Shown piece by piece: positions 6,341-11,852 of a stretch of 64,000 bases of DNA (positions are counted from its first letter, which is position 1; each line of letters opens with the position of its first letter). Position numbers and translations under genes: made by a program. The stretch covers positions 186,001 through 250,000 of the forward strand of contig NZ_JYIJ01000012.1 in NCBI RefSeq assembly GCF_001543895.1. The letters run 5' to 3'. The stretch comes from Carbonactinospora thermoautotrophica (lineage in GTDB: Bacteria > Actinomycetota > Actinomycetes > Streptomycetales > Carbonactinosporaceae). The notes under the pieces were generated by a model that did no database searches, was not told where the DNA came from, and worked only from the letters and a program-made list of their open reading frames with translations.

Positions 6341-6412
6341 ATTGACGTCCTCCCCGCGCCTAGAAGCCGGGGATTCCAGCCCTCACGGGCTGGGTTTCCT
6401 GCTTCACCGACG
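6341..6412 (-). ncRNA. Predicted TnpB guide (omega/reRNA) scaffold at the element right end
   Basis: Downstream of tnpB on the same strand lies a structured block: GTGAAGCAGGAAACCCAG, then a GCCC...GGGC hairpin, then GGAATCCCCGG and the terminal hairpin ending in GACGTCAAT. In the TnpB family the RNA spanning the 3' end of tnpB and the right end is the guide scaffold, and the bases just outside the element are the guide. Here the predicted guide starts ATGCCAGTCGCCGCGCGG (6340 downward, minus strand). The 5' limit of the RNA is unknown. Evidence is by family analogy and by the second copy at 7821-7895. Confidence 0.6.
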
Positions 6413-6464
6413 GCCGCCCGCCCGGAGTGCCCCGGGTGGGGTCTTACGCCGTCTCCACAGGCTG

Positions 6465-7535
6465 TCACCGCCCGTCCGGCGGCCAGGAGTTGCGTGCCGC
6501 GTTCACGTCCCGGTCATGCGTGGCCCTACACGCGGGGCATGCCCACGCCCGGACATGTAACGGCAGGCTGTCCAGCACGTGTCCACACGCGGAGCACATC
6601 TTGGACGAGGGCAGCCACCGGTCCACCACGACCAGGCGGCGGCCGTACCAGCGACATTTGTACTCCAGCATCGCCCGCAGCTCCGCCCACGCGGCGTCGG
6701 AGATGGCGCGGGCCAGGCGGCGGTTCTTGACCATGTTCCGCACGCTCAGGTCCTCGAGCACGACCGTTTGGTTCTCACGGACGAGCCGAGTCGAGAGCTG
6801 GTGCAGCAGGTCGCGGCGCCGGTCGGCGATGCGGGCGACCTTGAGTCGTGCTTTCTCCCGGTTCTTCGAGCCCTTCTCCTTGCGGGCCAGGCGAGCGCGG
6901 TCCCGGCGCTCATGCCGGGGATTGGTGATCTTCTCCCCCGTGGAGAGGGTCACCAGAGACGTGAGTCCGGCATCGACGCCGACCTCCCCGGCCACCTCGG
7001 GCAGGGGGCGGATGGTGGGGTCGTCGACCAGGATGGACACGAACCAGCGGCCGGCCCGGTCCCGGGTCACGGTGACCGTGGAGGGCTCCGCACCCGCCAG
7101 CAGGGGCCGGGACCACACGATCGCCAGCGGCTCGGAACACTTGGCCAGCCACAGTTGCCCGTCCCGCCAGCGGAACGCGCTGCGGGTGAACGTCGCCGAG
7201 GCCTTCCCCCGCTTCTTGGACTTGAACCGCGGGTATCCCGCGCGCTTGTCCCAGAACGCGGCGAACGCGTCCTGCAGGTGCCGCAGCGCCTGCTGCAACG
7301 GCACGCTCGACACCTCGCGCAGCCAGGCGTGCTCGGGGTCGGCCTTGAGCGCGGTCAACGCCCGGTCGGTCGCGGCGTAGCAGAGGCGTTCCCCGCGCTG
7401 GACGTAGGCCTCCGTCCGCAGGGCGAGCGCCCAGTTGTACACGTATCGCACGCACCCGAACGTGCGGTGCAGCAGGTCGGCCTGCTGCGGAGTCGGGTGA
7501 AACCGGTACGAACGCCCGCCGCGGCACCCGCACAT
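6465..7535 (-). CDS. tnpB: TnpB RNA-guided nuclease / IS605 OrfB
   Basis: A 356-residue TnpB, the ancestor family of Cas12. After the N-terminal YRFHPTPQQADLLHRTFGCVRYVYN block come all three RuvC acidic residues: aspartate in GEVGVDAGLTSL (about residue 190), glutamate in VVLEDLSVRNM (about 275) and aspartate in HDRDVNAARN (about 345). A four-cysteine zinc finger (CSAC...CPAC) interrupts the last RuvC part. Nothing needed for cleavage appears missing, so it may be active. The family keeps IS copies in place by cutting empty donor sites. The C terminus ends shortly after NAARN, as in short TnpBs. The ATG at 7535 places the PTPxQ motif normally. Confidence 0.92.
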   Translation of the reverse strand: MCGCRGGRSYRFHPTPQQADLLHRTFGCVRYVYNWALALRTEAYVQRGERLCYAATDRALTALKADPEHAWLREVSSVPLQQALRHLQDAFAAFWDKRAGYPRFKSKKRGKASATFTRSAFRWRDGQLWLAKCSEPLAIVWSRPLLAGAEPSTVTVTRDRAGRWFVSILVDDPTIRPLPEVAGEVGVDAGLTSLVTLSTGEKITNPRHERRDRARLARKEKGSKNREKARLKVARIADRRRDLLHQLSTRLVRENQTVVLEDLSVRNMVKNRRLARAISDAAWAELRAMLEYKCRWYGRRLVVVDRWLPSSKMCSACGHVLDSLPLHVRAWACPACRATHDRDVNAARNSWPPDGR

Positions 7536-7604
7536 GATCGAAGATCCGCGGGTAAGAGATCAAGCCGAAAGAGCGGCGTTTCATCCCCGCCCTGAAGGGC
7601 GGGG

Positions 7605-7799
7605 TCAGCCGCGCTCGGCCTGGTTTTCGGCTGTCTCGGCGACCGGTACAGGGACGACGGCGGCGACGCGGCGGCCCCGGTTGGTGATGTCGGTGATCTG
7701 CCCGTACACCGAGGCGGTATGGATTACGTCGGCCAGCTTGTCGCGGACTTCACGGAAGCTCTTCTCCTCAGCGACGCATCCATGTATCCAGGAGTATCC
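7605..7799 (-). pseudogene. Degraded Phd/YefM-type antitoxin gene
   Basis: The minus strand encodes, in one open frame, EKSFREVRDKLADVIHTASV then YGQITDITNRGRRVAAVVPV and a stop at 7607-7605. This matches the Phd/YefM antitoxin fold (an N-terminal V/FREVR-L helix and an I-T-NRGR-VAA-VP strand). No ATG, GTG or TTG start is available in this frame before an in-frame TAA at 7802-7800. An ATG in another frame (ATGCGTCGCTGA) sits where the start should be, so a small frameshift probably killed the gene. No partner toxin is seen. It is sandwiched between two IS605-type ends, and its stop is at the left end of the tnpB element. Confidence 0.65.
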
Positions 7800-7820
7800 T
7801 TACGCACCCCTACGTATGCC

Positions 7821-7895
7821 GGTGAAGCAGGAACCCACCGAGGCGCCGCACCAGCGGCAGGAATCCCCGCCCTTCAGGGCGGGGAGGACGTCAAT
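7821..7895 (+). ncRNA. Solitary IS605-type right end / guide-RNA scaffold without tnpB
   Basis: The plus strand repeats the landmarks of the tnpB right end: GGTGAAGCAGGAACCCA, a variable stem, GGAATCCCCG, a perfect 20-base terminal hairpin (7865-7884) and GGGGAGGACGTCAAT. No tnpB lies upstream of it on this strand. It could be a remnant of a second, deleted element or a stand-alone guide RNA. The bases after the end, which would act as guide, read TCCCCGGGCACCGGCACGGG (7896-7915). The end lies 44 bases before the next start codon. Confidence 0.55.
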
Positions 7896-7939
7896 TCCCC
7901 GGGCACCGGCACGGGGAAGGCCCACGGCAAGGGGGAAGG

Positions 7940-8602
7940 GTGACGGAGCCGGCCACCATCGCGTGTTCGCACCGCGGCTGCCTGACCGGGGCGCGGCAGC
8001 CCCTGCTGACCGTGCCCACGTACATCACGTTCGCGCGCATGGCGGCCAGCACGGTCGTGTTCCTGCTCGCGATCCGCGCCCACTCGATGCGGTTGGCCCT
8101 GGTCGGGCTGGCCGTCTACTGGGTGGGCGACATCCTGGACGGCTGGGTCGCGCGTACCTGGAACCAGGAGACCCGCACCGGCGCGGTGCTGGACATCCTG
8201 TGCGACCGGCTCGGCTGCGGCACGTTCTACGTGATCTTCGCGTTCCTGCGACCGGAGATGACGGTGCCGGTCGGGCTGTACCTGGTCGAGTTCATGGTGC
8301 TGGACTGCTTCCTGTCCCTGGCGTTCCTGAACTGGCCGCTGGTCAGCCCGAACTACTTCCACCTGGTCGACCGCCGGGTGTACCGGCTCAACTGGTCGCC
8401 GGTCGCGAAGTCCTGCAACACGGGCGCGCTGCTGGTCGTCATGCTGGCCACCGGATCGACGGCGCTCGCGACCCTGCTCATGCTCGCGGTGGGCGCGGTC
8501 AAGGTGTACTCGCTGTGGCTGGTGCGGCGGATCCCCGCCGGGACGGGGGGCGGCTGCGCGGTCCAGGCGGTGCGGCGCGGGTCGGCCGGTCGAGGGGCGT
8601 GA
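7940..8602 (+). CDS. CDP-alcohol phosphatidyltransferase family protein
   Basis: A 220-residue membrane enzyme that would transfer a phosphatidyl group from a CDP-linked lipid to an alcohol. The exact catalytic signature D-x2-D-G-x2-A-R-x8-G-x3-D-x3-D is present as GDILDGWVAR...GAVLDILCD (about residues 60-90). Several hydrophobic helices follow. The acceptor alcohol is not predictable; it differs clearly from the pgsA-like protein at 57996. The GTG at 7940 directly abuts a GGGGGAAGG purine run, an unusually short spacing, so the start may be slightly different. It is paired with the VTT gene 7 bases downstream. Confidence 0.85.
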   Translation: MTEPATIACSHRGCLTGARQPLLTVPTYITFARMAASTVVFLLAIRAHSMRLALVGLAVYWVGDILDGWVARTWNQETRTGAVLDILCDRLGCGTFYVIFAFLRPEMTVPVGLYLVEFMVLDCFLSLAFLNWPLVSPNYFHLVDRRVYRLNWSPVAKSCNTGALLVVMLATGSTALATLLMLAVGAVKVYSLWLVRRIPAGTGGGCAVQAVRRGSAGRGA

Positions 8603-10960: not shown

Positions 10961-11852
10961 TAAAGGTTGTCTCGTAACTCGGGGCGGTGTCGGCCGTTGG
11001 TCGGGGTATGGGTCAGGTGATCTCTGCTGCTCAGGCGGGGTGGATCACTCCGTTCACCGGGTTGACACCCCGGCAGTTCCGCAAGCTGGTGCGTACCGTG
11101 GCCGAGCGGGGCGGGGACAGGATCGCCGACGGTCGCGCCTGCCGGCCGTGGCGATTGTGTCTGGCGGATCGGGTGTTGCTGGTCGCGGTGTACTGGCGCA
11201 CGAACCTGACGTTGCGGCAGGTCGGCCCGCTGTTCGGGATCTCCCATGCCGCGGCGCACCGGGTCGTGGAGACGGTGGGGCCGCTGCTGGCCCTGGCCCC
11301 GGCCCGGCGCCGCAGCGTCGATCAGGTGTGCATCGTGGACGGCACCCTGGTGCCCACCCGGGATCGCCGCCTGGCGGAGCGCAGCAAGAACTACCGGTAC
11401 TCGACCAACCTCCAGGTCGCGATCGACGCCGACACCCGCCTGGTCGTCGCCGTCGGGGACCCCCAGCCGGGCAACCGCAACGACTGCCGGGCCTACCGCG
11501 AGTCCGGCATTGACCAGGTCCTGGCTGGCAGGCCTGTCATGGCCGACGGGGGCTATCAGGGCAACCCGGGCGTGATCATCCCCTACCGTAGGCCCCGGGA
11601 CGGCACGCCCCTGCCGGAGTGGCAGGAGGAGCTCAACGCGGTCCATCGCAGCGTCCGGGCTCGGATCGAGCACACCCTGGCGAGGATGAAGTGTTGGAAG
11701 ATCCTGCGCGATTACCGGCGCAAGGCCCATACCCTGCGCGACACCGCCGCCGGCATCGCCTTCCTGCACAACCTCGCCCTCACTGGTTGATCGGAGCAGG
11801 CGCCGGCCAGCATCGCACGCAACCCAGAAGACCAGTTACGTGACAGCCTTTA
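10961..11852 (+). mobile_element. Complete IS5-family insertion sequence
   Basis: A compact element with one transposase gene and imperfect terminal inverted repeats. The left end TAAAGGTTGTCTCGTAACT (10961-10979) pairs with the right end, whose reverse complement reads TAAAGGCTGTCACGTAACT (11834-11852). The flanks read C-TA at the left and TA-G at the right, compatible with a 2-bp TA (or YTAR) target duplication of the IS427/IS5 type. It sits 18 bases from the TetR operator of the acyl-CoA ligase and appears intact. Confidence 0.85.
11008..11790 (+). CDS. IS5-family DDE transposase
   Basis: A 260-residue transposase. An N-terminal helix-turn-helix region (TLRQVGPLFGISHAAAHRVVETV) is followed by the DDE domain: first aspartate in VCIVDGTLVPTRD, second in VMADGGYQGNPG, glutamate in RARIEHTLARMKCWKILRDYRR. 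All three catalytic residues are present and the frame is uninterrupted, so it is probably functional. I chose the ATG at 11008; a GTG at 10987 would add seven residues. Confidence 0.88.
   Translation: MGQVISAAQAGWITPFTGLTPRQFRKLVRTVAERGGDRIADGRACRPWRLCLADRVLLVAVYWRTNLTLRQVGPLFGISHAAAHRVVETVGPLLALAPARRRSVDQVCIVDGTLVPTRDRRLAERSKNYRYSTNLQVAIDADTRLVVAVGDPQPGNRNDCRAYRESGIDQVLAGRPVMADGGYQGNPGVIIPYRRPRDGTPLPEWQEELNAVHRSVRARIEHTLARMKCWKILRDYRRKAHTLRDTAAGIAFLHNLALTG

Follow-up and report, generated by a model that had tools for sequence, protein, structure and literature searches.

The window analyzed here is a stretch of 64,000 nucleotides of the Carbonactinospora thermoautotrophica genome (C12:186001-250000), and it contains a tnpB gene on the minus strand at 6465-7535 (PF07282, PF01385 and PF12323), together with its complete right-end scaffold (6342-6467, minus strand), which scores 94.2 bits across the whole of our covariance model R1 and is itself part of the training alignment. 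A left-end-like hairpin at 7585-7604, read from the sequence as CCCCGCCC-TGAA-GGGCGGGG with an outer stem GAGCGGC/GCCGCGCTC, sits between this element and a second one, and could have served either. Beyond it are the remnant of a Phd/YefM-like antitoxin gene (7605-7775, minus strand), a short intergenic stub (7776-7819, plus strand), and a block at 7820-7894 on the plus strand that resembles a tnpB right end, the 3′ part of a guide RNA scaffold. The block includes an intact terminal hairpin, CCCCGCCC-TTCA-GGGCGGGG (7865-7884, plus strand), which corresponds to the conserved helix 4 of the alignment described below, and the sequence at the guide position following its TCAA end is TTCCCCGGGCACCGGCACGG (7895-7914, plus strand). 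A CDP-alcohol phosphatidyltransferase gene lies downstream (7940-8602, plus strand; PF01066, E 1.2e-14), and an unrelated insertion sequence with a DDE transposase gene is found nearby at 10987-11790 (plus strand; PF13359, PF01609 and PF13613).

A sequence-only reading of this DNA had described the block as a solitary right end sharing landmarks with that of the neighbouring tnpB, and the landmarks it quoted are all present: the window has exactly two copies of GTGAAGCAGGAA, at 7822 on the plus strand and 6396 on the minus strand, and exactly two of GGGGAGGACGTCAAT, at 7881 (plus) and 6341 (minus), and among the matches listed the next-best have two mismatches to the first and three to the second. 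Its descriptions of the block as lying opposite in orientation to the neighbouring gene, as having no tnpB of its own, and as ending 44 bases before a start codon are likewise correct (44-45 bases to the GTG at 7940). A search of the whole genome (5.13 Mb in 19 contigs) with positions 7818-7896 reveals six close relatives, at C18:472173, C19:938590, C17:481638, C19:1186025, C19:197415 and C19:10371, with 85-89% identity and E values from 2e-23 to 3e-18; in the same search the right end of the neighbouring tnpB is 75% identical (E 1.5e-5), and these E values place the block far above chance. With a subterminal hairpin and a terminal TCAA homologous to right ends that stand beside tnpB, the block is a real IS200/IS605-type right end, terminating with the TCAA at 7894. 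All of these right ends terminate in TCAA, and because the base that follows differs among the copies (T, C, A or G), a guide would start at 7895, one base before the start at 7896 proposed earlier. A stretch matching this right end is also present in 905 Klebsiella plasmid records, the best about 76% identical, and in several of these it lies under an annotated TnpB gene.

Complete tnpB genes of a single family accompany four of the six close right ends (C17, C19:938k, C19:1186k and C19:10k), and decayed genes of that family accompany the others, with about half of the gene remaining at C19:197k and only eroded pieces at C18. The C18 copy (L010:2290-2753) has its tnpB in pieces and lacks five bases at stem 1 of the scaffold, and the remainder of its right end is kept. 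The neighbouring TnpB shares about 50% identity with the C17/C19 proteins and falls in another subfamily. Judged by these comparisons the block is a member of the C17/C19 family, the tnpB beside it being only a neighbour; the resemblance between the two right ends in the window is real, but the block is closer to the other six (85-89% against 75%), and the neighbouring TnpB is therefore not its natural partner, a role that we considered and rejected. Nor does the neighbour resemble a TldR-type derivative, since by eye its translation keeps the motifs GVDAG, LEDL and HDRDVNAARN and four zinc-finger cysteines.

Members of the C17/C19 tnpB family carry varied small divergent genes between the left end and tnpB (L009 for C17, L011 for C19:938k, L012 for C19:1186k and L014 for C19:10k). 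This gene is a Y1 tnpA at C19:1186k, where it is broken, and at C19:10k; it is AlpA/HTH_17-like at C19:938k (PF12728, E 8e-8), and Phd/YefM-like at C17 and in the remnant in the window.

The relationship with C17 extends well beyond the right end. Positions 7602-7796 of the window are 90% identical to the DNA directly upstream of the C17 tnpB, which carries the same left-end hairpin, with an outer stem, and a divergent small Phd/YefM-like gene, whose intact product matches PF02604 with an E value of 3.7e-4, below the curated cut-off. The remnant at 7605-7775 is also 90% identical to C17 in DNA; its frame is open and its stop codon is retained, and the start codon is gone. In C17 the phd-like gene gives way to about 13 units of a 10-base repeat, and then to a TATAAT box, tnpB and finally the right end. 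In the window, alignment of the stub with C17 shows about two degenerate units of the repeat next to the remnant, after which the right-end sequence CGGTGAAGCAGG comes directly, the stub terminating at a junction at about 7812-7820. The C17 tandem repeat consists of units of CCTGCGTACA and precedes the tnpB promoter (L009:3885-4010). The right part of the block is 88% identical to the C17 right end and adjoins the left part, with tnpB missing. Because the left part matches C17 and the right end lies next to it, we interpret the two as both ends of one element from which tnpB has been deleted. The designation of the block as a right end is thus confirmed but is too narrow, as 7602-7820 is the left part of the same element.

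With high confidence, therefore, we regard the block as what a core deletion has left of a C17/C19-family tnpB element of the IS200/IS605 type, from which a guide RNA is probably not made. The surviving pieces would be the left-end hairpin, the phd-like gene remnant, a stub of the repeats and the terminal 75 bases of the right end; tnpB and its promoter would have been lost, as would the 5′ half of the guide RNA scaffold. A single deletion presumably took all three, perhaps at short CCGGT/GCGGT matches. This corresponds to one of the alternatives offered by the sequence-only reading, that of a decayed second element, and other copies of the family, at C18 and C19:197k, are also decaying. The good preservation of the terminal hairpin and of the last 75 bases counts against a dead remnant.

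The left boundary and the TAM are presumptive; (G)AT precedes the left ends of other copies and is lacking in the window copy. A search of the synteny upstream of the CDP-alcohol phosphatidyltransferase gene gave only distant relatives of this gene within the order and relatives of 43-55% identity in other actinobacteria, and hence no empty site. These ends bear on the possibility that the element is a miniature mobile element (PATE) still moved by TnpA in trans, with the RNA irrelevant. At about 325 bases in total it keeps both a left-end-like hairpin and a TCAA right end, and the genome has TnpA (Y1) genes, one of them adjoining a tnpB of the C17/C19 family; but the deleted form has no second copy in the genome and the bases before its left end are unlike those of other copies, and we consider continued mobility improbable. 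At most, the DNA ends of the remnant might still be recognised by TnpA in trans.

Whether such a right end could yield a guide RNA depends on the scaffold, for which we aligned 28 right ends drawn from the present genome and relatives within the order (alignment A3). In the common plan, columns 16-21 pair with 55-60 to form stem 1 and columns 29-33 with 47-51 to form an inner hairpin; a terminal hairpin and a three-pair pseudoknot, GAC-GUC, complete it. Pairing is seen in 91.1% of cells against 70.3% in shuffles, and two-sided changes in 83 cells against 22.9, and when the partners are shifted by one to three columns pairing falls to 32-42%. The structure was picked by eye on these same sequences and on the ISDra2 plan, so that the percentage paired is biased towards it and the two-sided changes are the stronger evidence. 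Stem 1 and the inner hairpin show strong covariation across the 28 right ends; the pseudoknot pairs are nearly invariant, and support for them comes from analogy with ISDra2 rather than from covariation.

The window copy starts part-way through this plan. It has neither the 5′ arm of stem 1, nor the inner hairpin, nor the pseudoknot partner GAC, and it lacks about five further bases in the region of stem 3. Under covariance model R1 it scores 67.4 bits, with nothing aligned to positions 16-49, compared with 94.2-132.3 bits for the copies in the genome with complete scaffolds, all of which are in the training set; the C18 copy, which is outside the training set, scores 100.5 bits despite its five-base loss at stem 1. 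Rejection by a covariance model had been named in advance as evidence against a guide RNA, and in substance the model does reject this copy, recognising a relative but not a complete scaffold. Given the covariation and the ISDra2 structure, an RNA that lacks the GAC partner, stem 1 and the inner hairpin would not be expected to fold into a scaffold usable by TnpB. Matches in relatives that appear 5′-truncated by blastn were considered as parallels and set aside, as most are full length under the covariance model. A right end in genome G217 (L148) scores 59.8 bits and has no tnpB; it may be a similar remnant.

The other alternative offered earlier was a scaffold that the nearby TnpB could load in trans. 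Taken more widely, as a stand-alone guide RNA that would lead a TnpB of the genome, either the neighbour or one of the C17/C19 family, to cut or bind a match to 7895-7914 in trans, this reading has in its favour the retained 3′ scaffold and terminal hairpin, the genes at other places in the genome for four complete TnpBs of the block's own family, and the occurrence in other genomes of the order of tnpB-less elements whose scaffolds are complete; against it are the missing 5′ scaffold half, which would hold the pseudoknot partner, and the presence of a single copy in the genome. A scan of 7540-7960 for one promoter type, sigma-70-like, and for terminators found no such site, and the first 16 bases of the guide have no second perfect match in the whole genome, which argues also against a TldR-type guide directed to a host promoter. 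We thus consider a guide acting in trans very unlikely, and loading by the neighbouring TnpB, as the sequence-only reading had it, faces the added difficulty that this protein is of a different family. The usual guide target is the empty donor site, which would not be expected in the present genome. Allowing up to three mismatches over 16 bases, the genome contains 394 sites, against 187 for a reversed control. The best GAT-preceded candidate target (L052), with two mismatches, was rejected, being within chance for the 19 sites inspected; it is preceded by GGAT, resembling the bases before the left ends of other copies.

It is conceivable, though highly improbable, that transcription from outside still yields the truncated 75-nt scaffold and that a C17/C19-family TnpB takes it up in trans, which if true would make it a tnpB-free guide on a minimal scaffold able to do without both stem 1 and the canonical pseudoknot. 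Since processed scaffolds down to 79 nt have been reported for certain TnpBs (PMC10278001), short scaffolds are conceivable in principle. The idea that the CDP-alcohol phosphatidyltransferase gene now uses the hairpin as a leader or for its regulation, suggested by the block lying 45 bases upstream of the GTG start, is scarcely credible: the complete copies have the same hairpin at unrelated sites, so that the element itself explains it, and no terminator-like site was found in 7540-7960. Since an internal deletion seems to have taken tnpB and half of the guide RNA, the block is most likely ordinary dead DNA rather than a functional stand-alone guide.

Elements without tnpB that do keep the guide RNA are found in other genomes of the order. 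A family of about 280 bases was found by way of a right end without tnpB in a relative, with members in G244, G080 (two), G050, G237 and G143 (two) and partial alignments in G124 and G211 (loci L102/L164, L165, L166, L167, L168, L105/L169, L149 and L170). Over the full length or nearly so they are 78-85% identical to the query, with differing flanks and differing guides, and no relatives of these TnpBs are encoded in the flanks examined. They consist of a left-end hairpin, an inverted repeat GTCCGACAAC/GTTGTCGGAC, a complete scaffold (88-106 bits with R1) and TCAA, and stem 1 shows compensatory changes, such as GACC/GGTC and GGTC/GACC. One lies inside an antiporter-like gene, and the reading frame resumes beyond the element, as judged from the join read in the sequence. 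These are candidate mobile guide-RNA elements without a nuclease gene, and the size of the family in the order and the plasmid matches to the same right end suggest that Streptomyces may be hosts; the literature that we searched contained no report of Streptomyces guide RNA elements lacking tnpB. The window copy is unlike these elements, which keep the whole scaffold. Alone, the remnant is of little weight, illustrating one decay route of tnpB elements in which tnpB is lost and the right end survives. By combining a covariance model with a test for the pseudoknot partner, dead right ends can be told apart from tnpB-less elements with a complete scaffold, and this combination led to the 280-base family, in which guide RNAs moving without a nuclease gene could be tested.

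At gathering score no Rfam family matches in the window, and the complete copies of the family match sot0042 (RF02656) and HgcC (RF00062) weakly, at 23.9 and 24.9 bits, far under the gathering scores of 88 and 50. The closest parallel for the scaffold is that of ISDra2, which starts at -116, with stem 1 formed by -116/-111 and -91/-86 and with the 3′ end pairing to -105/-103; both stem 1 and the pseudoknot depend on this region, and the shortest of the 5′ trims tested ends just before it (PMC10097598). The complete copies in the genome match this plan of stem 1, pseudoknot and terminal hairpin. The block shares with ISDra2-type elements a right end with a subterminal hairpin and TCAA, its 3′ scaffold being homologous to those complete copies, but differs from them and from their reRNA or omegaRNA in having no tnpB, stem 1, inner hairpin or pseudoknot partner.

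Core deletions of IS605-type elements are documented, including the PATEs and terminal-only elements of Haloquadratum walsbyi (PMC3119063), with which the block has in common two palindromic IS605-type ends and a deleted tnpB core: palindromes are present at 7585-7604 and 7865-7884, the left part is homologous to C17, and there is no tnpB. It differs from these elements in being single-copy, with no evidence of movement, and in retaining the remnant of a phd-like gene. The block is thus most likely a decayed, PATE-like core-deletion remnant, of a kind already described for IS605 elements.
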